A DNA stretch of 64,000 nucleotides from Hydrogenophaga sp. Lineage in GTDB: Bacteria > Pseudomonadota > Gammaproteobacteria > Burkholderiales > Burkholderiaceae_C. Of this stretch, positions 4,791 through 34,042 are shown piece after piece; positions within the stretch are counted from its first letter, which is position 1, and the number at the start of each line of letters is the position of its first letter. The stretch spans positions 124,001-188,000 of the forward strand of contig NZ_JAILWB010000005.1 of assembly GCF_025699295.1 (NCBI RefSeq), given 5' to 3'. The notes beneath the pieces were generated by a model. It searched no databases and had not been told where the DNA came from. It saw only the letters and a program-made list of their open reading frames with translations. The position numbers and the translations under genes are program-made.

Positions 4791-4810
4791 ACCTGGCCAA
4801 CACGTCTACC

Positions 4811-4883
4811 CCGTTCGGGCTGAGCTTGTCGAAGCCTTCACCCGCACCATTGCACGAGCCCTTCGGCAGGCTCAGGGCGAACG
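4811..4883. repeat. REP-like inverted repeat, family A
   Basis: One arm reads CCGTTCGGGCTGAGCTTGTC and continues GAAG; the opposite arm ends AGGCTCAGGGCGAACGG. The arms pair as a long imperfect hairpin. The same family (core CTTCGACAGGCTCAG) recurs at 14075-14191, 15286-15356, 18489-18560 and 31977-32036. Confidence 0.8.
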
Positions 4884-4915
4884 GTGGGTAGGCATGGAAC
4901 GTTGAGATACAAAAC

Positions 4916-14030: not shown

Positions 14031-14074
14031 GTCGGTCCTCGGGGGGCGCAACGCGCAAGCCAGACGCAACGAGA

Positions 14075-14191
14075 CCGTTCGCCCTGAGCCTGTCGAAGGG
14101 CCTGAGCCTGTCGAAGGGCTCGTGCAACAGGCGTTGGCAAGGGCTTCGACAAAGCCTGTCCTGAGCTTGTCGAAGGGCTCAGCCCGAACGG
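14075..14191. repeat. REP-like repeat cluster, family A
   Basis: Two direct copies of the GAGCCTGTCGAAGGGC arm are followed by a further arm pair ending CTCAGCCCGAACGG. The cluster fills the gap between the biotin carboxylase stop and the dehydrogenase start, so the operon transcript must cross it. Confidence 0.8.
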
Positions 14192-14205
14192 AAGCAAGCT
14201 CATCT

Positions 14206-16197
14206 TCAGGCGCTGAAGATCAACAGCAGCTGGCCCGGTGCCACCTGCTGGCCAGCGGCCACCGAGAGCGCTTCAACGGTGACGTCGCGCGGCGCGGCCA
14301 GGGTGTGTTCGAGTTTCATGGATTCGATCACCAGCAGCGGCTCGCCGCGGGCGACGCGCGCACCGGGCGTGGCGTGCACCGCCACCAGCTTGCCGTTGAA
14401 GGGTGCGCGCAACTCGCGCGCGGCGTTCGCACCGCCTGCGCGTTCGCGCGGCGCGTGGCTCAGGTCCACCAGCTCGATGGTGTGCGCGCCGGCCTGCACC
14501 TGCCAGCGCCCACCGCCCAGTGGCGCGGCGGCCACGGGCCAGGCGCTGCCGTCGACCACCACGCGGCCCGGTGCCACATGGGCCAGCTGCATGCGCTCGC
14601 CGTGCGCAACGCGCAGCGCGCCCTGCCCGGTTTCCTGCACCGCGAGGTCGAGCACCTGGTCTTCGCCATGGCGCCAGCGCAGCGGGCGCGCGAACGGGCA
14701 AGGCAGCGCGCTCGCGGGCGCCAGGCGGTCGAACGCGGCGGCGAGCACGGCGGCCAGCACCGCGTCGGGCGGGGGCAGCAGCGTGGCGCGGATGGCCTCG
14801 CCCTCCTCGGCCAGAAAGGGAATGAGCGCCCCGCCTTCGTGGAACACCGGGTTGCGCAGGCAGGCCGCCAGAAAGGCGCGGTTGCTCGGCAGGCCCAGCA
14901 GCAGGGTGTGGTCCAGCGCGTGGGCCAGTCGGTCGATCGCGTCGCGGCGCGTGGGCGCGTGGGCGATCAGCTTGCCGAGCATGGCGTCGTAGTGCGGCGA
15001 GACCTCGCTGCCGGTTTCCAGCGCATGGTCAAAACGCAGGCCGGCGGGCAGCGGGGGTTCGGCAAAGCGGTGCACGCGGCCGGTGTGCGGCGTGTGGTGC
15101 TCGTCCTCGGCGCACAGGCGCACCTCGATGGCGTGGCCGCTGAAGATGATCTGATCCTGCGCCAGCGGCAACGGCTCGCCGCGCGCCACGCGCAACTGCC
15201 ATTCCACCAGGTCCAGCCCGGTGAGGGCCTCGGTCACCGGGTGCTCCACCTGCAGGCGGGTGTTCATCTCCATGAGGTAGAACCCCCGTTCACCCTGAGC
15301 TTGTCGAAGGGTCCCAGAGGTGCTGGCGGGGGCTTCGACAGGCTCAGCCCGAACGGAGGGTTCGTCCACCAGAAACTCCACCGTGCCCGCCCCCACATAA
15401 CCCGCCGCCTGCGCCAGCGCCACGGCGCAGCGGCCCAGCGCTTCGCGCAGCGCGGGCGACACCGCCGGGCTCGGCGCCTCTTCGATGATCTTCTGGTGCC
15501 GGCGCTGCACCGAACAGTCGCGCTCGCCCAGGTGCACGCAGTGGCCCTGCGTGTCGGCGAACACCTGCACCTCCACATGGCGCGGGCGCAGCAGCGCGCG
15601 TTCGATCAGCAGGTCGCCGTTCGCAAAGCCGGCCAGCGCCTCGGAGCGCGCGCCCTGCAGCGCGGGCAGCAGCTGCGCGGCCTCGTGCACCAGGCGCATG
15701 CCGCGCCCGCCGCCACCGGCCACGGCCTTGACCATGAGCGGAAAACCGATGCGCTGCGCCTCGGCCACGAAGGTGGCGTCGCGCTGGTCGTCGCCGAAGT
15801 AGCCGGGCAGGCAGGGCACGCCGTGCGCGGCGGCCAGCGCCTTGGCGGCGGACTTGCTGCCCAGCGCGCGGATGGCCGCCGGCGGCGGGCCGACCCAGAT
15901 CAGGCCGGCGTCGATCACGGTCTGGGCGAAGTCGGCGTTCTCGCTCAGGAAGCCGTAGCCCGGGTGCACCGCGTCGGCGCCGGTGGCCACGGCCGCGTCC
16001 AGCAGGCGGTCCACGCGCAGGTACGAGTCGGCCGAGGCCGCGCCGCCGAGCGCGAACGCGGTGGTGGCCTCGCGCACGTGCAGCGCGCGCGCGTCGGGTT
16101 CGGAAAACACGGCCACGGTCTGTATGCCCATGGCGTGGGCGGTGCGGATGATGCGGCGGGCGATTTCGCCGCGGTTGGCAATGAGAAGTCTCTTCAT
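14206..16197 (-). CDS. atuF: Geranyl-CoA carboxylase-type alpha subunit (biotin carboxylase plus BCCP)
   Basis: Protein of 663 residues. The biotin carboxylase starts MKRLLIANRGEIARRIIRTA, with the ATP-grasp loop AGGGGRGM near 160-167 and the active-site strand FYLMEMNTRLQVEHPVTE near 306-323. The C-terminal biotinyl domain has ESMKLEH at 625-631, biotin on Lys628. It carboxylates biotin for the beta subunit at 18578. The gene order (after atuB-C-D-E) supports AtuF over the 3-methylcrotonyl-CoA enzyme. About 25 residues between VEFLVDE and FYLMEMN are encoded by an inserted REP-like palindrome in frame. The first 33 bases are part of a direct repeat with the atuE end. Confidence 0.85.
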   Translation of the reverse strand: MKRLLIANRGEIARRIIRTAHAMGIQTVAVFSEPDARALHVREATTAFALGGAASADSYLRVDRLLDAAVATGADAVHPGYGFLSENADFAQTVIDAGLIWVGPPPAAIRALGSKSAAKALAAAHGVPCLPGYFGDDQRDATFVAEAQRIGFPLMVKAVAGGGGRGMRLVHEAAQLLPALQGARSEALAGFANGDLLIERALLRPRHVEVQVFADTQGHCVHLGERDCSVQRRHQKIIEEAPSPAVSPALREALGRCAVALAQAAGYVGAGTVEFLVDEPSVRAEPVEAPASTSGTLRQAQGERGFYLMEMNTRLQVEHPVTEALTGLDLVEWQLRVARGEPLPLAQDQIIFSGHAIEVRLCAEDEHHTPHTGRVHRFAEPPLPAGLRFDHALETGSEVSPHYDAMLGKLIAHAPTRRDAIDRLAHALDHTLLLGLPSNRAFLAACLRNPVFHEGGALIPFLAEEGEAIRATLLPPPDAVLAAVLAAAFDRLAPASALPCPFARPLRWRHGEDQVLDLAVQETGQGALRVAHGERMQLAHVAPGRVVVDGSAWPVAAAPLGGGRWQVQAGAHTIELVDLSHAPRERAGGANAARELRAPFNGKLVAVHATPGARVARGEPLLVIESMKLEHTLAAPRDVTVEALSVAAGQQVAPGQLLLIFSA
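15286..15356. repeat. REP-like repeat, family A, inside the atuF reading frame
   Basis: The arms CCGTTCACCCTGAGCTTGTC and GGCTTCGACAGGCTCAGCCC with GAACGG enclose a short spacer. It lies inside the biotin carboxylase gene and is read through in frame. It encodes a stretch including VRAEPVEA and LRQAQGER that has no counterpart in ordinary biotin carboxylases. Confidence 0.85.
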
Positions 16198-16339
16198 GGG
16201 TTCCTCGCGGCTCATCGCCCTGCACGCTTCGCGTGCCGTGCCATTTGGTGAGCGCTGCACATGGCCCGACAGGCCATATGAGCGCTCCCCCGCGCCAAGG
16301 CGCGAACGCCGCGGTTGGCAATGAGAAGTCTCTTCATGG
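16167..16339. repeat. 33-bp direct repeats flanking a 107-bp insert at the atuE/atuF junction
   Basis: The 33 bases at 16167-16199 (start of atuF) are repeated exactly at 16307-16339, where they overlap the atuE stop codon. The second copy still reads ATGAAGAGACTTCTCATTGC on the minus strand, so atuE and atuF originally overlapped by ATGA. The 107 bases between contain a nested hairpin: GAGCGCT (16250-16256) with AGCGCTC (16281-16287), and ATGGCC (16261-16266) with GGCCAT (16272-16277). No reading frame of note. Confidence 0.85.
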
Positions 16340-17131
16340 CTGGCCGGCCCAGGGCGCGGGCTGCTTCTTCGCGAAGGCGGCCAGGCCGGCGGCGGCCTCG
16401 GGGCTGCGCAGCCCTTGCGCGAAGGCGAAAGCGGCTTCGGTGCGCAGGTCGGGCACGTCGTTGCGCATGCGCTGCAGCAGGCGCTTGGTGCTGGCCACGG
16501 CGCCGGGCGCGGCGCGCATCATGGCCTGCACGCGCGCGGCCAGGGCGGCCTCCAGCGCGTCGTCGGCCACGAGCTCGTCCACCAGGCCCAGTGCCTGCGC
16601 CTCGGCGCCCTTGTACATGCGGCCCTGCAGCAGGCACTGCCGCGCGGCGGCGTCGCCCAGGCGTTGCCAGACGAAGGGCGCGATCTGCGCCGGCGGCAGG
16701 CCCAGCGTCACTTCCGGTGTGGCGAAAGTCGAGCGCTGCGTGGCAATCACGTGGTCGGCGCAGCACAGCAGGCCGAAGCCGCCGCCCATGGCCGCGCCGT
16801 CGACCGCGCACACCAGCAACTGCGGCAGGCCGCACAGCGCGTGCAGCACGTCGCCAAAGCCGCGGTTCAGGTCGACCAGCGGGTCCGCCTCGCCCGGCTG
16901 CAGCGGCTGGCCGATGGCGCTGGCAAAGCTGCCCAGGCTGCCACCGGCGCTGAAGGCACCGGGCGCGCCGGTGAGCACGATGACGCGCAGGGTTTCGTCC
17001 TGCCGGGCGCGCACGCAGGCGCCGAACAGGCCCAGCACCATGGCGTCGCTCAGCGCGTTGCGCGTGGCGGGGTCGTTGAGCGTCCAGCGTTCGGTATCGC
17101 CCTGGCGTTCTGTGTGGAAGGTGGTGGTCAT
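16334..17131 (-). CDS. atuE: Enoyl-CoA hydratase/isomerase, isohexenylglutaconyl-CoA hydratase-like
   Basis: Crotonase-fold enzyme of 265 residues. The oxyanion-hole motifs are GAPGAFSAGGSLGSF (near 55-69) and AVDGAAMGGGFGLLCCADHV (near 108-127). It would hydrate the carboxylated isohexenyl-glutaconyl-CoA made by the AtuC/AtuF carboxylase. That specificity rests on gene order (atuB-C-D-E-F as in Pseudomonas), not on residues I can identify. The stop codon overlaps a duplicated copy of the atuF start. The ATG at 17131 starts MTTTFHTERQG; the frame upstream is open but reads into repeat DNA. Confidence 0.8.
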   Translation of the reverse strand: MTTTFHTERQGDTERWTLNDPATRNALSDAMVLGLFGACVRARQDETLRVIVLTGAPGAFSAGGSLGSFASAIGQPLQPGEADPLVDLNRGFGDVLHALCGLPQLLVCAVDGAAMGGGFGLLCCADHVIATQRSTFATPEVTLGLPPAQIAPFVWQRLGDAAARQCLLQGRMYKGAEAQALGLVDELVADDALEAALAARVQAMMRAAPGAVASTKRLLQRMRNDVPDLRTEAAFAFAQGLRSPEAAAGLAAFAKKQPAPWAGQP

Positions 17132-17163
17132 GGTTGGTGGTACTGACAGGTGTTGGCGGGGGA

Positions 17164-17271
17164 GCCCCCACCCCAACCCTCCCCCAGAGGGGGAGGGGGT
17201 TGAACGCCCGCCCCCTCTGGCGGCGCAGGGAGAACTCCCTCCCCCTCTGGGGGAGGGTTGGGGTGGGGGCC
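17164..17271. repeat. C-rich inverted repeat, family B
   Basis: Two arms of CCCCACCCCAACCCTCCCCC with AGAGGGGGAGGG face each other around a short centre. The element fills the atuE-atuD gap. The same family is inside atuC (19363-19443), and a single arm ends atzE (33626-33662). Confidence 0.8.
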
Positions 17272-17285
17272 CGCGCGCAGCAAGC

Positions 17286-18458
17286 TCACTTCACCGCCCT
17301 CTTCGCAATGCCCATGATCTTGCTCAGTATCCCCAGCATGACCTCGTCCGCCCCGCCGCCGATGGAGGCCAGGCGGCCGTCGCGGTACATGCGCGAGACC
17401 TTGTTTTCCAGCGTGAAGCCCATGCCGCCCCAGAACTGCAGGCAGGTGTCGGGCACGGTGCGGTTGAGGCGCCCGGCCTTGAGCTTTGCCATGGTGGCCC
17501 ACTCGGTCACGTCCTCGCCGGCGATGTAGTGCTCCACCGCCTGGTAGGTCAGCGCGCGCAGGCTCTCCACCTCGGTCTTGAGCTCGGCCAGCTTGAACTG
17601 CACCCACTGCTGGTCGGACAGGCTGGCGCCGAAGAGCTTGCGTTCCTGCGCCCATTCCACCGTCCATTCGATGCAGTTGGACAGGCTCTGCAGCGTGCTC
17701 GCGGCGCACCACAGGCGTTCTTCCTGGAACTGCTGCATCTGGTAGATGAAGCCCGCGCCCTCCTGGCCGATGCGGTAGCGCTGCGGCACGCGCACCTCGT
17801 CGAAGTAGATCAGGCCGGTGTCGCTGCTGTGCATGCCGATCTTGCGGATTTTCTGCGCCACCTCGATGCCCTTGACGAGCTTGCCGCCCTCGCGCATCGG
17901 CACCATCACCAGGCTCTTGTTCTTGTGTGCGGGGCCTTCGCTGGTGTTGACCAGCATGCACATCCAGTCGGCCTGCAGGCTGTTGGTGATCCACATCTTC
18001 TGGCCGCTGATGACGTAGTCGTCGCCGTCCTTGCGCGCCACGCTCTTGATGCCGGCCACGTCGCTTCCGGCGCCGGGTTCGCTCACGCCGATGCAGCTGA
18101 CCATGTCGCCGGCAATGGCGGGCGCGAGGAAGTCGCGCTTCAGTTCCTCGCTGCCGAAGCGCGCGAGTGCGGGCGTGGCCATGTCGGTCTGCACGCCGAT
18201 GGCCATGGGCACGCCGCCGCAATGGATGTGGCCCAGCGTCTCGGCCATGGCCATGCCGTAGGAATAGTCCAGGCCCGCGCCGCCCTGTGCCTCGGGCTTG
18301 GTCAGGCCCAGCAGGCCGAGCTGGCCCAGGCCCTTGAAGACCTCGTGCGCGGGGAAGATTTCGGCCGCTTCCCACTCGTCCACGTGCGGGTTGATGTGCT
18401 CGTCGATGTAGCGCTTGAGCGTCTTCTGGATCTCGCGGTGTTCGTGGGTGAATTGCAT
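17286..18458 (-). CDS. atuD: Acyl-CoA dehydrogenase, citronellyl-CoA dehydrogenase-like
   Basis: FAD enzyme of 390 residues. GLDYSYGMAMAETLGHIHCG, then GVPMAIGVQTDMATPALARF, and later SCIGVSEPGAGSDVAGIKS closely resemble P. aeruginosa AtuD as I remember it. The C-terminus has FWGGMGFTLENKVSRMYRDG and SIGGGADEVMLGILSKIMG. It would introduce the double bond into citronellyl-CoA to give geranyl-CoA. AAGGAGA lies 9-12 bases before the ATG. It sits between atuC and atuE, separated by palindromic repeats on both sides. Confidence 0.85.
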   Translation of the reverse strand: MQFTHEHREIQKTLKRYIDEHINPHVDEWEAAEIFPAHEVFKGLGQLGLLGLTKPEAQGGAGLDYSYGMAMAETLGHIHCGGVPMAIGVQTDMATPALARFGSEELKRDFLAPAIAGDMVSCIGVSEPGAGSDVAGIKSVARKDGDDYVISGQKMWITNSLQADWMCMLVNTSEGPAHKNKSLVMVPMREGGKLVKGIEVAQKIRKIGMHSSDTGLIYFDEVRVPQRYRIGQEGAGFIYQMQQFQEERLWCAASTLQSLSNCIEWTVEWAQERKLFGASLSDQQWVQFKLAELKTEVESLRALTYQAVEHYIAGEDVTEWATMAKLKAGRLNRTVPDTCLQFWGGMGFTLENKVSRMYRDGRLASIGGGADEVMLGILSKIMGIAKRAVK

Positions 18459-18488
18459 GGCGTCTTGTCTCCTTTTTGATTCGGGTTC

Positions 18489-18560
18489 CCGTTCGCCCTG
18501 AGCTTGTCGAAGGGTTCACCCAGGTGTTGGTGAAGGCTTCGACAGGCTCAGACCGAACGG
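18489..18560. repeat. REP-like repeat, family A
   Basis: The arms CCGTTCGCCCTGAGCTTGTC (then GAAGG) and GGCTTCGACAGGCTCAGACC (then GAACGG) form a long hairpin. It occupies the gap between the atuC stop and the atuD start. Confidence 0.8.
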
Positions 18561-18577
18561 CGGTTTCTTCAGTCCAT

Positions 18578-20245
18578 CTACATCCTCGCCACGCCGAACT
18601 GCATGCGCCGCGGCGCATGCGCGGCGGCTTCGGCGCAGGTGTCGAGGCAGAAGGCGAGCACGGCACGCGTGTCGCGCGGGTCGATCACGCCGTCGTCGAG
18701 CACCAGGCCGCTGGTGTGGAAGGCATCGGCCTGGCTTTCGAACACGTTCACGATCTGGTCGAACTGGGCCTGCATCTGCGCCGGGTCGGGCGTGATGCCT
18801 TTGCGCGCCATGCCGGCCTCGGCCACGATCTGCATGGTGCGCGCGGCCTGCTCGCCGCCCATCACCGCCGTCTTCGCCTGCGGCCAGCTGAACAGGAAAC
18901 GCGGCGCATAACCGCGCCCGCACATGCCGTAGTTGCCGGCACCGAAAGACGCCCCGCACTGGATGGTGATCTGCGGCACCGTGGCATTCGTCACCGCCTG
19001 GATCATCTTGCTGCCGTGCTTGATCATGCCGCCCTGCTCGCTGTCCTTGCCGACCATGTAGCCGGTGGTGTTCTGCAGGTAGATGAGGGGGTGGCCGAGC
19101 TGGCACATCCACTGGATGAAGTGCGTGGCCTTGTTCGCGCCGGCCACGTCGATCGGGCCGTTGTTGCTGATGAGGCCCACCGCGTGGCCGCCGATGCGCG
19201 CCTGCACGCAGAGGGTGGCGGCGCCGTAGAGCGCCTTGAATTCGAGCAGCTCGGAGCCGTCGACGATGCGGGCGATGACTTCGCGCATGTCCACCGGCTC
19301 GCGGTGGTGCGGGGGCATGAGGGCGAGGAGGTCGTCGGGGTGGAAGAGGGGTTGGCGCTCGTGGCCCCCACCCCAGCCCTCCCCCAGAGGGGGAGGGGGC
19401 TCGAACTCCCTCCCCCTCTGGGGGAGGGTTGGGGTAGGGGCCCGCGCCGCCAACTGCCCCAGCACCCGCCGCGCCAACCCCAGCGCCTCCCGGTCGTCCT
19501 CCGCCAGGTACTCCCCCAGCCCCGACACCCCGGTGTGCATCTCGGCCCCGCCCAGCTCCTCTTCCGTCGCCACCTCGCCGGTGGCGGCCATCAGCAGCGG
19601 CGGCCCGGCCAGGAACGCGCGCGAACGCCCGCGCACCATGATCACGATGTCACTGAGCCCCGGCATGTAGGCGCCGCCCGCCGTGCCCGAGCCGTGCTGC
19701 ACGGTGATCACCGGGATGCCCGCGGCCGAGAGGCGCGCCAGGTTGCGGAACAGGCCGCCGCCGAGCACGAAGCCTTCGACCTTGTATTTGGTGAGGTTGG
19801 CGCCTGCGCTCTCCACCAGGTGGATGAAGGGCAGGCGGTTCTCCAGCGCGATCTCCTGCACGCGCAGGATCTTCTCCAGCCCGCGCGCCTGGATCGCGCC
19901 GGCGTCGATGCCCGAGTCGCTGGCCACCACCATGCAGCGCACGCCGGCCACGAAGCCCATGCCCGCGACCATGCCGCCACCGGGCACCGATTTCTCCGCG
20001 TCTTTTGTGTCCTGCATATAGCCGGCCAGTGAACACAGCGGCACATAGGGCGCACCGGGGTCCAGCAGCAGGGCCACGCGCTCGCGCGGCAGCAGCTGGC
20101 CGCGCTTGTCGAACACGGGTTTCGATTTCGCGGAGGCCTGTGCCGCGCGGTCTTCGAGCGCGCGCAGCTGCGCGATGCGCGCCAGCATGGCCTCGCGGCG
20201 CTGCTGGGCCTGCGGACTCTGAGGGTTGAAACTCGATTCAAACAT
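18578..20245 (-). CDS. atuC: Geranyl-CoA carboxylase-type beta subunit (carboxyltransferase)
   Basis: Carboxyltransferase of 555 residues. The N-domain has SLAGYMQDTKDAEKSVPGGG (72-91), GSGTAGGAYMPGLSD (185-199) and FLAGPPLLMAATGEV (211-225). The C-domain has DVAGANKATHFIQWMCQLGH and CGASFGAGNYGMCGRGYAPR. At the position of the Phe in the HFGR motif of methylcrotonyl-CoA carboxylase this protein has Gly162 (LGGGLF). As I recall from structural work, that exchange marks geranyl-CoA carboxylases. Residues about 268-296 come from an in-frame family B repeat in the linker between the two domains. The start overlaps the atuB stop by eight bases. Confidence 0.86.
   Translation of the reverse strand: MFESSFNPQSPQAQQRREAMLARIAQLRALEDRAAQASAKSKPVFDKRGQLLPRERVALLLDPGAPYVPLCSLAGYMQDTKDAEKSVPGGGMVAGMGFVAGVRCMVVASDSGIDAGAIQARGLEKILRVQEIALENRLPFIHLVESAGANLTKYKVEGFVLGGGLFRNLARLSAAGIPVITVQHGSGTAGGAYMPGLSDIVIMVRGRSRAFLAGPPLLMAATGEVATEEELGGAEMHTGVSGLGEYLAEDDREALGLARRVLGQLAARAPTPTLPQRGREFEPPPPLGEGWGGGHERQPLFHPDDLLALMPPHHREPVDMREVIARIVDGSELLEFKALYGAATLCVQARIGGHAVGLISNNGPIDVAGANKATHFIQWMCQLGHPLIYLQNTTGYMVGKDSEQGGMIKHGSKMIQAVTNATVPQITIQCGASFGAGNYGMCGRGYAPRFLFSWPQAKTAVMGGEQAARTMQIVAEAGMARKGITPDPAQMQAQFDQIVNVFESQADAFHTSGLVLDDGVIDPRDTRAVLAFCLDTCAEAAAHAPRRMQFGVARM
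19363..19443. repeat. C-rich inverted repeat, family B, inside the atuC reading frame
   Basis: Two facing arms of the CCCCACCCCAGCCCTCCCCC type lie within the carboxyltransferase gene. The 81-base element equals 27 codons and is read through. It encodes segments such as APTPTLPQRGRE and PPPPLGEGWGGG, which are foreign to the family. Confidence 0.85.
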
Positions 20246-23970: not shown

Positions 23971-25560
23971 TCAGGCCTCCTCCTGCGGTTGCGCGGCTTC
24001 CTCTCCGCCGTCGAGCCGGAACACCGCCACCGCCGAGGCCAGCTGGCGGGCCTGCTCCATGAGGCTCTCGGCGGCGGCCGAGGTCTGCTCCACCAGCGCG
24101 GCGTTCTGCTGCGTCATCTGGTCGAGCTGGCCCACGGCCACGTTGATCTGCGCCACGCCATCGGCCTGCTCGCTGCTCGCCGTCGTGATCTCGCCCACGA
24201 TGCCACTGACGCGCCGCGCGTTCTCCACCACCTCGATCATGGTGCCGCCGGCCTCCTGCGCCTGCCGCGTGCCGCCGGAGATCTGCGCGCCGGACTGTTC
24301 GATCAGCAGCTTGATTTCCTTGGCGGCCTGCGCGCTGCGCTGCGCCAGGTTGCGCACCTCGGCGGCGACCACGGCGAAGCCGCGGCCCTGTTCACCCGCG
24401 CGCGCCGCTTCCACGGACGCATTGAGCGCGAGGATGTTGGTCTGGAAGGCGATGCCGTCGATCACGCCGATGATCTCGCCGATGCGGATGCTGCCGCGCT
24501 GGATGTCGCTCATGGACCGCACCACCTGTTCAACCGTCTCGCCGCTGCGGCGGGCGACATCGGCCGAGCGGCTGGCAAGCTGGTTGGCCTCGCGCGCCGA
24601 GCTGCTGGAATGCTGCACGGTGGCCGTCATTTCCTCCATGCTGGCGGCCGTCTGCTGCAGGCTGCTGGCGGCCTGCTCGGTGCGCACCGACAGGTCCTGC
24701 GAGCCTTTGGCCACCTCCTCGCTGGCGATGGCGATCTGGTCGGAGGCCTGGCGCACGGCGCCCAGCACGTCGCGCAGCCGCGCGGCCATGGTGTCGAGCG
24801 AACGCAGCACGCGCTGCGGCTCGCTCTGGCCCCGGGCGTCCACGCGCAGGGACAGGTCGCCGGCGGCCATGCGCTCCACGGCGTGCAGCGCATCCTGGCT
24901 GCTGCGCACCAGGCCGCGCGCGATGGCAAAGCCCAGGCCGACCAGCAGGCCCATGGCCACCAGGCCCAGCACGGCCACCCAGACGATGGCCTGGTGCGTG
25001 GTGGCCACCAGCTGGTCGTGGTCGTGGACCAGGATCTTCGACTCGTGCGCGATGACATCGGCCACCGCCTTGTTCAGGCGCTCCAGGTACGGGCGGCAGT
25101 GCTCGATGGTCATGTAGCCGGCCGAACTGATGTCGCCGTCCCTGGCGGTCTCGGCGATCCGGATCGCCACCGGGCCGTAGTCCTGTTCGACCGCTGCCAA
25201 GGCCTCCACCAGCTGGCGCTCCTGCTCGCCCGCGTCGGCGCTCAGCGCCTGGAGCCGGGCCAGTGCGGCCTGGGTGGCTTCATGCGCCCGCACGGTGATG
25301 GCGTACATCTCGTCGCGCACGGCGGGCTCCGCGGCCAGCGCCAGGTTGCGCACGGCGATGGCGCGCGCGGCCACGGCCTGGCCCAGCTCGTTCGCGGCAT
25401 CCTGGCGTGGCAGGTTCTTTTCATGGCTCTGGTCCGCCAGGCTGGCGGTGCGCTGCAGGCTCCAGGCGCCGATACCGGCCACACCGGCCAGGAAAAGCGC
25501 GGCCGTGGCCAGCAGGACCGCGAGCTGCGCGCGGATGGTTTGTCGGGACAGGTGAAACAT
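23971..25560 (-). CDS. Methyl-accepting chemotaxis protein
   Basis: Chemoreceptor of 529 residues. An N-terminal transmembrane helix ([20 protein letters not shown]) precedes a roughly 150-residue four-helix-bundle-like sensor. Then come a second helix ([20 protein letters not shown]), a HAMP domain and the signalling tip [20 protein letters not shown]. There is no C-terminal CheR/CheB pentapeptide. It is a tandem paralogue of the next gene, sharing most of the cytoplasmic part and differing most in the sensor. The ligand is unknown. Confidence 0.9.
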
Positions 25561-25683
25561 GAAGGGCCTCGTGCATGAAGGGGATCGTGTCCCCTTCATC
25601 GACGGCACTTCATGCGCGCTGCATACCCCGGATGCAGTATTTTTCCTTACCGCTGGTCCGCCGGTTCGATCGCGGCGGCGCCG

Positions 25684-27261
25684 TCAGGCGTGCGCGCCGG
25701 CGCCGTGGCCGTCGAGGCGGAACACCGCCACCGCGGCGGTCAGCTGGCGGGCCTGTTCCTTCAGGCTCTCGGCCGCGGCCGAGGTCTGCTCCACCAGTGC
25801 GGCGTTCTGCTGCGTCATGTGGTCGAGCTGGGTCACCGCAACGTTGATCTGGCCCACGCCGTCGGCCTGCTCGGTGCTGGCCGACATGATCTCGGCCACG
25901 ATGCTGCTCACACGGCGCGCGTTGTCCACCACCTCGGCAATCGTGCCGCCGGCCTCCTGCACCAGGCGTGTGCCACCGGTCACCTGGTTGTTCGAGTCCT
26001 CGATCAGCTGCTTGATTTCCTTGGCCGCCTGCGCGCTGCGCTGTGCCAGATTGCGCACTTCGCCCGCCACGACCGCGAAGCCGCGGCCCTGCTCACCGGC
26101 GCGCGCCGCTTCCACCGCAGCATTGAGGGCGAGGATGTTGGTCTGGAAGGCAATGCCATCGATCACGCCGATGATCTCGCCGATGCGGCCCGAAGACTTG
26201 CTGATGTCGCCCATGGTCTGCACCACCTGGCCGACCACGTCGCCACCCCGGCGTGCGACCTCGGCCGACTCGCCGGCGAGCTGGTTGGCCTGGCGCGCCG
26301 AATTGCTGGACTGCTGCACGGTGGCCGTCATTTCCTCCATGCTGGCCGCCGTCTGCTGCAGGTTGCTGGCGGCCTGCTCGGTGCGGGCCGAGAGGTCCTG
26401 CGAGCCTTTGGCCACTTCGTTGCTGGCGGTGGCGATCTGGTCGGACGCCTGGCGCACCGTGCCCAGCACATCGCGCAGCCGCGCGGCCATGGCGTCCAGC
26501 GAACGCAGCACGCGCTGCGGCTCGCTCTCGCCGACGGCCTGCAGGCGCAGCGACATGTCGCCCGCGGCCATGCGTTCCACCGCGCTCAATGCTGCCTGGC
26601 TGCTGGCCACGAGACCGCGCGTGATGACATAGCCCAGTCCGACCAGCGACAGCAAGGCACCCAGACCGAGCGCGGCCACCCAGCCCATGGTGTTGTGCGT
26701 GCCCGCCAGCAAGGCGTGGTGGTCCTTCTGTGCCTTGTCCGCCTCGAACTTCAGCAGGGTGGCCACGGCGCCGTCCAGACGCTCCAGCAGGGGCCTGCAC
26801 TTTTCGATGATCAGCGCGGCAGCCTGCGTCAGGTCACCGCTGGCTGCGATCCCGGTGATGTGCAGCGCCACCGGCCCGTAGTCCGCTTCGGCGGCCACCA
26901 CCGCGTCGACCAGCCGCTTTTCCTCAGGTGCGGCATTCGCCGTGACCTCCTGCAGTTCGGCCAGCGCCGCCTGCGTGGCCGCGTGGGCCTTCTTCACCCG
27001 TTCCAGCTCGACGCCACGCACTTCGGCGTTCGCCGCCAGCGTCAGGTTGCGCGCGGCCACCGCGCGGGCGTTGACCGCCTGTATGAGCTCGTTGGCCACA
27101 CGCTGGCGCGGCACGTTGACGTCGTTGCTCTGGCGCGCAATGTCGGCGCTGTGCATCAAGCCCCAGGTGCCGATGCCGGCCAGACCAACGAGGAACAGCG
27201 CGGCCACGGCCAGCAGGACCGAGAGCTGCGCGCGAATGGGACGTTGGGACAGTTGAAACAT
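25684..27261 (-). CDS. Methyl-accepting chemotaxis protein, paralogue
   Basis: Chemoreceptor of 525 residues with the same layout as the gene at 23971: [20 protein letters not shown] start, periplasmic helical sensor, second helix near 190-210, HAMP, and the tip [20 protein letters not shown]. No methylesterase/methyltransferase tether is seen at the end ([10 protein letters not shown]). It is divergent from the urea-derivative operon, with 230 bases between the start codons. A link between its ligand and that operon is possible but unproved. Confidence 0.9.
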
Positions 27262-27465
27262 GGGACTCCCTCACATGGAAAAGCTTCTTTGCACAGGCTT
27301 CTTCGACGGGGTGCGGGGAAAACTTGATGGCACGGATGGGGGATTCACGCCCTGGCGCGCGGGGAAACCCGATCAGGGGGCCGCCGCCACGGACAGGCGG
27401 CAGACCCCCGGCGCACAGACGGCGGACAGACGGCGCCCGAAGCTGGCATTCAACTTGCATGTTGT

Positions 27466-31967: not shown

Positions 31968-31976
31968 CCGCCTTGG

Positions 31977-32036
31977 CCGTTCAGCCTGAGTCTGTCGAAG
32001 GGTTCGCGAGCACTTCGACAGGCTCAGTGCGAACGG
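31977..32036. repeat. REP-like repeat, family A
   Basis: The arms CCGTTCAGCCTGAGTCTGTC (then GAAGGG) and CACTTCGACAGGCTCAGTGC (then GAACGG) form a hairpin between the ABC ATPase stop and the atzG start, inside the operon. Confidence 0.8.
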
Positions 32037-32043
32037 AGTCCAT

Positions 32044-32248: not shown

Positions 32249-33664
32249 ATGAGCCTGCCCCCCTCCCTCAGCCAGATCGCCCAGACAGTGGCCAGCGGCC
32301 AGCGCAGCGCCGCCGAGGTGCTGGCCGCCAGCATCGCGCGCATCGAGGCGACCGAGGCGCGCATCAACGCCTTCACCGGCACGCGCTTCGAGGCCGCGCG
32401 CGCCCAGGCCGCGCGGGTGGACGCGCAGCGCTCGCGCGGCGAGCCACTGGGCCCGCTGGCCGGCGTGCCGTTCGCGGTGAAGAACCTGTTCGACATCGCG
32501 GGCGAGGTGACGCTGGCGGGCTCGAAGGTGAACCGAGCCCACCCGCCCGCCAGCGACGACGCGGTGCTGGTGCAGCGCCTGCAGGCCGCGGGCGCGGTGC
32601 TGGTGGGCTCGCTCAACATGGACGAGTACGCCTACGGCTTCACCACCGAGAACACGCACTACGGCCCCACCCACAACCCGCACCGGCTGAACCATGTGGC
32701 GGGCGGTTCGTCGGGCGGCTCGGGTGCGGCGGTGGCGGCGGGCCAGGTGCCGCTCACGCTGGGGTCGGACACCAACGGCTCGATCCGCGTGCCCGCGTCG
32801 TTCTGCGGCGTGTGGGGGCTCAAGCCCACCTTCGGGCGGCTCTCGCGGCGCGGCAGCTACCCCTTCGTCGCCAGCATCGACCACCTCGGCCCCTTCGCCG
32901 ACGACGTGGACGGCCTGGCCCTGGCCTACGACGCATTGCAGGGCCCGGACCCGCTGGACCCGGGCTGCTTCGCCACTTCGGTGCAACCGGTCACGCGCTC
33001 GATCGGCCTGGGCGTGCAGGGTCTGCGCGTCGGCGTGCTCGAGGGCTACTTCGTGGAACACGCCGACACCGCCGCGCGCAACGCCGTGGCCTCGGCCGCC
33101 GCCGCGCTGGGCGCGCGCGCCACGGTGGAATGGCCCGATGCGGCGCAGGCGCGCGCGGCGGCCTTCATCGTCAGCGCCAGCGAAGGCGGCGCCCTGCACC
33201 TGCAGCGCCTGCGCACGCAGGCGGCCGAATTCGAGCCGCTGTCGGTGGACCGCTTCATCTCGGGCGCGCTGCAGCCCGCCGCGTGGTACGTGCGCGCGCA
33301 GCGCTTTCGCCGGGTCTACCGCGACAAGGTCAACGCCCTGTTCCGCGACTGGGACGTGCTGATCGCGCCAGCCACGCCGGTGCCGGCGCCCGCCATCGGC
33401 ACCGAGTGGATCGAGATCAACGGCCAGCGTTTTCCCTGCCGCCCCTCCATCGGCCTGCTCACGCAGCCGGTCTCGTTCGCCGGTTGCCCGGTGGTGGCCG
33501 CGCCGCTGTGGCCCTCGGGCACCGGCGGCCTGCCGATCGGCGTGCAGCTCATTGCCGCGCCCTGGCGCGAAGACCTGGCCCTGCGCGCCGGCTGGGCGCT
33601 GGCGCAGACCGGCGTGGCGCATCTTGCCCCCACCCCAACCCTCCCCCAGAGGGGGAGGGAGTAA
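32249..33664 (+). CDS. atzE: AtzE-like amidohydrolase (1-carboxybiuret hydrolase type)
   Basis: Amidase-signature enzyme of 471 residues with triad Lys78 (GVPFAVKNLFD), Ser154 (AGGSSGGSG) and Ser178 (SDTNGSIR). AtzE removes ammonia from 1-carboxybiuret, giving 1,3-dicarboxyurea; HpxY-type relatives act on ureido compounds. The last dozen residues (APTPTLPQRGRE) are encoded by one arm of a family B repeat and replace whatever tail the ancestor had. It is coupled to atzG and directly followed by atzH. Confidence 0.84.
   Translation: MSLPPSLSQIAQTVASGQRSAAEVLAASIARIEATEARINAFTGTRFEAARAQAARVDAQRSRGEPLGPLAGVPFAVKNLFDIAGEVTLAGSKVNRAHPPASDDAVLVQRLQAAGAVLVGSLNMDEYAYGFTTENTHYGPTHNPHRLNHVAGGSSGGSGAAVAAGQVPLTLGSDTNGSIRVPASFCGVWGLKPTFGRLSRRGSYPFVASIDHLGPFADDVDGLALAYDALQGPDPLDPGCFATSVQPVTRSIGLGVQGLRVGVLEGYFVEHADTAARNAVASAAAALGARATVEWPDAAQARAAAFIVSASEGGALHLQRLRTQAAEFEPLSVDRFISGALQPAAWYVRAQRFRRVYRDKVNALFRDWDVLIAPATPVPAPAIGTEWIEINGQRFPCRPSIGLLTQPVSFAGCPVVAAPLWPSGTGGLPIGVQLIAAPWREDLALRAGWALAQTGVAHLAPTPTLPQRGRE
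33626..33662. repeat. C-rich repeat, family B, single arm
   Basis: One arm (CCCCACCCCAACCCTCCCCC with AGAGGGGGAGGGAG) encodes the AtzE C-terminus. Its purine-rich half AGGGAG (33656-33661) sits six bases before the atzH ATG and serves as its ribosome binding site. Confidence 0.75.
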
Positions 33665-33667
33665 GCC

Positions 33668-34042
33668 ATGGACATCAACATCCCCGAGGTGCTGGCCGAG
33701 GTCACGGCCGCGTTCGAACGCTACGAAGTCGCGCTGGTCGGTAACGACGTGGCCGTGCTCGACGAGCTGTTCTGGAACAGCCCGCACACCCTGCGCTACG
33801 GCGCCACGGAAAACCTCTACGGCTACGACGCGATCCGCGCCTTTCGCGCCGGGCGCCCCTCGGCGGGCCTGGCGCGCACGCTGGGTCGCACCGTCATCAC
33901 CAGCTACGGACGCGACTTCGCGACCGCCAACACCGAGTTCCACCGCGCGGGCAGCGAGCGCATCGGCCGCCAGAGCCAGACCTGGGTGCGCACGCCCGAA
34001 GGCTGGCGCGTGGTCGCGGCGCACGTCAGCCTGATGGCCTGA
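33668..34042 (+). CDS. atzH: AtzH/HpxZ-like protein (SnoaL/NTF2 fold)
   Basis: Protein of 124 residues with the DUF3225 pattern ([20 protein letters not shown], then [13 protein letters not shown]). In Pseudomonas ADP, AtzH is a decarboxylating amidohydrolase that converts 1,3-dicarboxyurea to allophanate, linking AtzE to AtzF. The related HpxZ belongs to oxalurate operons. Position after atzG-atzE supports the AtzH role. The ribosome binding site is provided by the preceding repeat arm. Confidence 0.8.

Follow-up and report, generated by a model that had tools for sequence, protein, structure and literature searches.

The window, a 64,000-nucleotide stretch of a Hydrogenophaga sp. contig, carries two minus-strand genes for the subunits of an acyl-CoA carboxylase, and each of them contains a different palindromic repeat (family A or family B) that is read through in frame. 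The two genes and their repeats are as follows.

14206..16197, minus strand: biotin-carboxylase (alpha) subunit gene, AtuF-like, with an in-frame family A repeat (start codon at 16197, end at 14206; supported by the open reading frame [ORF], a structure match, and a predicted structure)
15286..15356, minus strand: family A palindrome of 71 nt (SVRAEPVEAPASTSGTLRQAQGER), read in frame in atuF at the hairpin tip between GTVEFLVDE and FYLMEMN
18578..20245, minus strand: carboxyltransferase (beta) subunit gene, AtuC-like, with an in-frame family B repeat (ORF from 20245 to 18578; structure matches)
19363..19443, minus strand: family B palindrome of 81 nt (RAPTPTLPQRGREFEPPPPLGEGWGGG), read in frame in atuC in the linker joining both carboxyltransferase domains

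Comparison with solved structures placed AtuF and AtuC among acyl-CoA carboxylase subunits, as kin of geranyl-CoA carboxylase (GCC). The top solved match of AtuC was GCC beta (5ikl, 575 bits), and that of AtuF was MCC alpha (3u9s). The names AtuC and AtuF are provisional, because no GCC name exceeded the NCBIfam cutoff for either subunit and because a paralogous carboxylase in genome G024 outscored AtuC against GCC beta (766 bits). Genome-wide searches covered the source genome (4.69 Mb, 42 contigs), in which AtuC matches at an E value of 1e-120 or better comprised only the window gene and one paralogue (44% identical). A second, GCC-like carboxylase was present in five other genomes of the genus (L411 to L415); its linkers were almost identical (fully so in four of the genomes), and this likeness suggests a recent spread.

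Repeat families A and B in the two carboxylase genes

The initial annotation had described two different palindromic repeats in frame at these positions, and this description was confirmed. The atuF frame is open through 15286 to 15356 and the atuC frame through 19363 to 19443, the motifs flanking both repeats are intact, and copies of the repeat cores in the genome far exceeded the controls. The family A core gave 83 matches (one mismatch allowed) compared to 4 for the same pattern read backward, and the family B core gave 32 matches (two mismatches allowed) compared to 0. The atuF copy of family A is an inverted pair of half-units, which mostly follow the pattern CCGTTCG-NNN-CTGAGCYTGTCGAAG-NNN. 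Folded as RNA, this element reached -35.5 kcal/mol (z = -3.6), and the family B element in atuC, a longer palindrome, reached -86.8 kcal/mol (z = -8.3); for both, none of 200 shuffled sequences folded as well. Among 58 exact A half-units from the window and the stretches taken from its own genome, the three-base flanks of the core could pair in 50 (G-T pairs allowed) and not in 8. These pairing flanks varied widely (GGG/CCC, GCC/GGC, ACC/GGT, GCA/TGC, GGA/TCC, and others). Because the flanks pair so frequently and in several base combinations, each half-unit looks like a hairpin that is maintained through compensating changes.

Within AtuF, the hairpin segment comprises 49 residues compared to 25 in the shortest relatives, a net gain of 24 codons. 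The match to 3u9s breaks exactly at the element (query residues 2 to 280 and 305 to 659), and the predicted structure (mean pLDDT of 89.7) keeps strands 269 to 278 and 305 to 312 while the insert is disordered, with most of residues 282 to 302 at a confidence below 50. Family A therefore lies, as had been proposed, in the hairpin loop between the two active-site strands. Residues E274 and E310, one on each flanking strand, were invariant in 33 aligned homologues; we take them to be the counterparts of the E. coli biotin carboxylase metal ligands. Outside the insert, the ratio of nonsynonymous to synonymous substitution rates (dN/dS) was 0.17 to 0.27 between the window gene and six relatives and 0.12 to 0.28 in seven other pairs. 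As judged from these ratios, AtuF is under purifying selection to an extent similar to that of its relatives, although the selection recorded in them probably acted, for the most part, before the insert arrived. The retention of both strands around a disordered insert in the model, together with purifying selection on the rest of the gene, indirectly supports the view that the host protein tolerates the insert. The start of atuF (MKRLLIANRG) is also copied 140 nt upstream of itself as a perfect 33-nt direct repeat (16167 to 16199 and 16307 to 16339); between the copies, an imperfect palindrome around GAGCGCT was seen by eye and was not reported by the repeat finder.

In AtuC, the linker segment comprises 76 residues compared to 55 in the shortest relatives, a net gain of about 21 codons. 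The predicted structure, with an only fair mean pLDDT of 68.7, places the family B insert behind helix 251 to 268, as a low-confidence stretch (270 to 293) ahead of the second domain, in agreement with the proposed position in the linker between the carboxyltransferase domains. Homologues that are free of repeats did not have the residues of the inserts.

The AtuF hairpin and the AtuC linker across the genus

From a set of 67 genomes of the genus, 54 were looked up for the AtuF hairpin, and 53 hairpins were readable. The hairpin was empty in 24 and longer in 29; a recognizable A, B, or C repeat was found by DNA pattern in 24 of the latter. The longer hairpins carried A (3), A with B and C (1), B (5), C (13), B with C (2), or another sequence (5), whereby the patterns permitted two or three mismatches and the second label, B, is unsure in G023 and G033. 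Family C (PPQGETAPSGGSDPRSGGAWG) occurs in tandem in some hairpins, and its expansion there produces segments of 182 (L129), 152 (L342), and 119 (L341) residues. All counted hairpins read without stops. In a tree of the AtuF gene without the hairpin, with states set by hand (G023 as A; G033 and G057 as C), at least 16 changes over five states were required. The four A-bearing AtuF genes needed four changes, three of which were forced by well-supported branches. An alignment of 51 AtuF proteins contained inserts of at least 15 residues at the hairpin in 16 sequences, and elsewhere internally at one place in one sequence.

The equivalent hairpin of three paralogous families served as a control, for which the 30 best-scoring loci per family were used. 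None of these loci carried a repeat in LiuD (0/30), PccA (0/30), or AccC (0/30), and the hairpins had two lengths in LiuD (30 and 34) and one each in PccA and AccC. Beyond those 30 loci, full-length rows of one listing spanned 1320 to 1323 bases for 440 to 441 residues, and rows covering residues 1 to 479 of another spanned 1437 bases (one 1434). Repeat-bearing hairpins were thus found in 24/53 AtuF genes compared to 0/90 paralogues (Fisher P = 7e-13, with related genomes not being independent). A counterexample to specificity for AtuF is a carboxylase of G030 (L416, 48% identical), which has a C-type repeat in its own biotin-carboxylase hairpin; no repeat was found in the hairpin of five GCC-like paralogues that are closer than that of G030. 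In many genomes (L165 to L193), the antisense strand of liuD had few or no stops over about 660 codons, a reminder that an open frame is weak evidence of coding in this GC-rich genus.

For the AtuC linker, 49 genomes were looked up, 5 of them without a match. The 44 readable linkers were empty in 23 cases, B-type in 19, A in 1 (G012), and other in 1. The script had counted 21 empty, 19 B, 2 A, 1 C, and 1 other, and its labels for G005 (A) and G042 (C) were overruled at lengths of 56 and 55, which are those of empty linkers. G012 carries family A in both subunits.

The two inserts differ in age. The AtuF hairpin is empty in near relatives as judged by AtuC (G024, G001, and G029) and by AtuF (G011, G059, and G003), and since most near relatives have an empty hairpin, the family A insert looks young. 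Family B in the AtuC linker is common to the window genome, G024, G001, and G014; because several relatives share it, this insert is the older of the two.

In-frame repeats in other proteins

Additional copies of both families lie elsewhere in the window, where they were located by a repeat search without a strand assignment.

14074..14185: three clustered family A half-units, intergenic, downstream of AtuF
17161..17273: family B palindromes, intergenic
18488..18561: family A palindrome, intergenic
4810..4885: another family A copy
31976..32037: another family A copy
33623..33675: another family B copy

The window also contains a long tandem duplication (23990 to 27262, 1701-nt spacing, pieces 75 to 87% identical), probably of neighboring duplicated genes.

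To find further intragenic copies, stretches of the source genome around A/B sites were searched with Pfam for 29 ORFs crossing elements, on both strands for some elements. A family was found for 14 of these ORFs and none for the other 15. The minus-strand ORF of L275 and the plus-strand ORF of L282, whose domains lie far to one side, were not counted, which left 12 further proteins with an in-frame A/B element or half-element. These are a NirB-like reductase, PriA, a xanthine-dehydrogenase-like protein, PurL (with A and B both), a YgiQ-like radical SAM protein, a DinG-like helicase, NuoG, UvrD, HsdM, NarG, RecG, and a hybrid kinase. In 10 of the 12, Pfam domains flank the element on both sides or surround it; in HsdM and the hybrid kinase, they lie on one side only. 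PriA and HsdM contain half-elements. The RecG and NarG elements coincide with gaps against solved homologues. Codon-usage scoring had also been tried for coding strands around the repeats; it was too weak in this GC-rich genome and failed to call AtuF in its own gene, and Pfam was used instead. The initial annotation had pointed out that repeats became protein sequence twice in the same complex. Such inserts are not peculiar to this complex in view of the 12 other proteins, and since both families occur together in PurL, a single protein, the idea that two inserts in one complex are special was given up.

The frame in which family A is read was not random. The forward A arm was read as VRxE in 10/10 genes that have one (AtuF included) and never in the other open frame, SLSK; the chance of this outcome is about 0.001 if the two frames are taken as equally likely. 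This bias suggests that hydrophilic readings of the A arm survive.

At fixed sites of PurL and UvrD, too, the repeat family varied between genomes. The loops of both proteins were assigned by eye from the peptides, and 2 of 30 rows for PurL had no sequence at the sites. At PurL site 1, the window's genome, L351, L352, and L363 have B, L353 to L355 have A, and L356 to L358 and L360 have C; 13/30 rows are empty there (31 to 32 residues). At PurL site 2, A is present in the window's genome and in L351, L353, and L355, and B-like peptides are present in L352, L364, L365, and L370. In one UvrD loop, the window's genome, L381, L385, and L395 have A and L386, L388, L390 to L392, and L396 have a B-type repeat; in the remaining 20/30 rows this loop is empty. 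In the alignments of AtuF, AtuC, PurL, and UvrD, inserts of 12 to 15 residues or more were concentrated at the named sites; elsewhere inside the proteins, they occurred in one AtuF sequence and once near PurL site 2.

Explanations for the inserts and relation to known repeats

We consider it likely that permissive disordered loops receive repeat insertions, which are then filtered by frame and fold. According to this explanation, A and B are small dispersed hairpin repeats that would be spread through the genome by a mover and would enter genes as well. Intragenic copies would be purged unless they are in frame and in a tolerant loop, i.e., one from which some 20 to 30 disordered, hydrophilic residues can protrude without upsetting the fold. 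Since few loops per protein would be suitable, the same loops would be filled repeatedly, which would account for the different families that different lineages carry at the AtuF hairpin tip, in the AtuC linker, at both PurL sites, and in the UvrD loop. We infer that the carboxylase and the other insert-bearing proteins work, that the repeats arrive through insertion and not through exchange with a resident repeat, and that the insertion sites are set by survival and not by targeting.

Several observations weigh against this explanation. The hairpins of LiuD, PccA, and AccC are clean though their fold is the same; therefore, loop position alone is insufficient for the choice of a site. The AtuF hairpin of G012, which shares an unresolved tree fork with the window gene, also contains family A, though in a different arrangement, and the two A inserts may share an origin. 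Three A and two B elements are crowded into 6.2 kb (14074 to 20245) compared to 0.07 expected from 55 A/B elements genome-wide, in a region chosen after the fact, and this crowding hints at local spread or low constraint. Finally, neither a mover nor any insertion event or target duplication was found.

Other explanations were considered. Later repeats could recombine with or nest into a resident repeat, so that loops are not hit empty again and again. Hairpins that combine A with C, or B-like repeats with C (G023, G051, and G057), would fit such an exchange, as would the B-type AtuC linkers of relatives, which strongly differ in sequence and length. However, empty and repeat-bearing hairpins adjoin on many tree branches, and A, B, and C have no evident common sequence for homologous exchange, which makes this route unlikely. 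A transposase that prefers a DNA motif or structure would account for the use of the same few sites in AtuF, AtuC, PurL, and UvrD. Such targeting seems very improbable to us, given that the same sites are taken by different repeat families, that the loop DNA that was read showed neither a shared motif nor a target duplication (no formal motif search was made), and that no A/B core adjoins the one Y1 transposase gene found in the genome.

We give slightly less credence still to the idea that the inserts are selected for a function, e.g., as a pause or brake exerted by a stable messenger hairpin in atuC or as a new contact surface. The strong fold of family B within a coding region (-86.8 kcal/mol) and the B-type linkers in 19/44 genomes would be expected under this idea, but presence is patchy, sequence and length are variable, and the site is empty in many relatives. 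It is hardly credible that the inserts reflect an assembly error or a pseudogene in the making. Hairpin segments of up to 182 residues (G005) might raise this suspicion; nevertheless, the counted hairpins are stop-free, the catalytic residues are invariant in the 33 aligned homologues, and dN/dS is 0.17 to 0.27. Moreover, other repeats fill the AtuF hairpin in genomes that were assembled separately, among them assemblies with one to three contigs (G005, G025, and G040), so that a general assembly error is unlikely.

Filtered insertion into permissive loops resembles the mode of action described for Rickettsia palindromic elements (RPE). In the available portions of two papers (PMC3733652 and PMC2996958), which cite work on protein-coding palindromes of Rickettsia and Wolbachia, these palindromes are likewise found in frame in many unrelated genes and read as short peptides, with the host proteins apparently kept. 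Families A and B are dispersed palindromic repeats, too, and are inserted in frame in unrelated genes whose frame is kept. They probably differ from RPE in their repeat sequences, and they differ in their free-living comamonad host and in that several families interchange at the same loops across the genus. Intragenic repetitive extragenic palindromic sequences (REPs) coding for 20 to 30 residues, many of them in replication and repair genes, were reported by Di Nocera et al. in 2013 (PMC3733652, as far as its available text goes), and PriA, UvrD, RecG, and the DinG-like helicase are comparable hosts here. Compared with the text and Table 1 of that paper, A half-units lack the terminal GTAG or CGTC tag and the CGTC loops of 4 to 5 bases; they have a CGTTC head and a long loop instead. 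In the same portions of PMC3733652, different REPs occupy about the same recB site in two Xanthomonas species and sites otherwise differ. Same-site recurrence is thus described there for recB only, whereas the present data show it at five sites in four proteins and include paralogue controls.

REPINs and the REPs associated with RAYT (REP-associated Y1 transposases) are, in the available parts of PMC3116915, PMC2817692, and PMC8266576, likewise hairpin repeats that occur as inverted pairs scattered over a genome; in contrast to them, many copies here lie inside genes. Copies mobilized by a RAYT would flank its gene; in the source genome, one Y1_Tnp match was found, with no A/B core beside it. 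By eye, short inverted GGGGTC-GATTCC-like repeats, neither A nor B, flank this single Y1 transposase gene (L410). Searches for the A/B repeat sequences and peptides found nothing relevant in the literature, and among the top matches in the open-access literature there was no report pairing in-frame repeats with Comamonadaceae, Hydrogenophaga, or geranyl-CoA carboxylase. In-frame coding palindromes and intragenic REPs are already known; relative to the available portions of these papers, what is new is the untagged families and the strong same-loop recurrence with paralogue controls.

As a wider and more tentative reading, which we regard as possible but doubtful, the genus may possess permissive landing loops, i.e., a few fixed protein sites that capture repeats of unrelated families, and perhaps swap them, as interchangeable peptide cassettes. 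For annotation, VRAEPVEA or GEGWGGG peptides within proteins of these bacteria should be taken as read-through repeats and not as domains. If the wider reading is true, the repeats would constitute a natural insertion-scanning experiment, and mutation by repeats would be one way for enzymes to acquire disordered loops and to vary them. The recurrent filling of the same loops by different repeats offers replicate natural events with empty controls, from which one can ask what makes loops tolerant, whether repeats prefer to insert in these loops or only survive in them, and whether inserts ever become useful.

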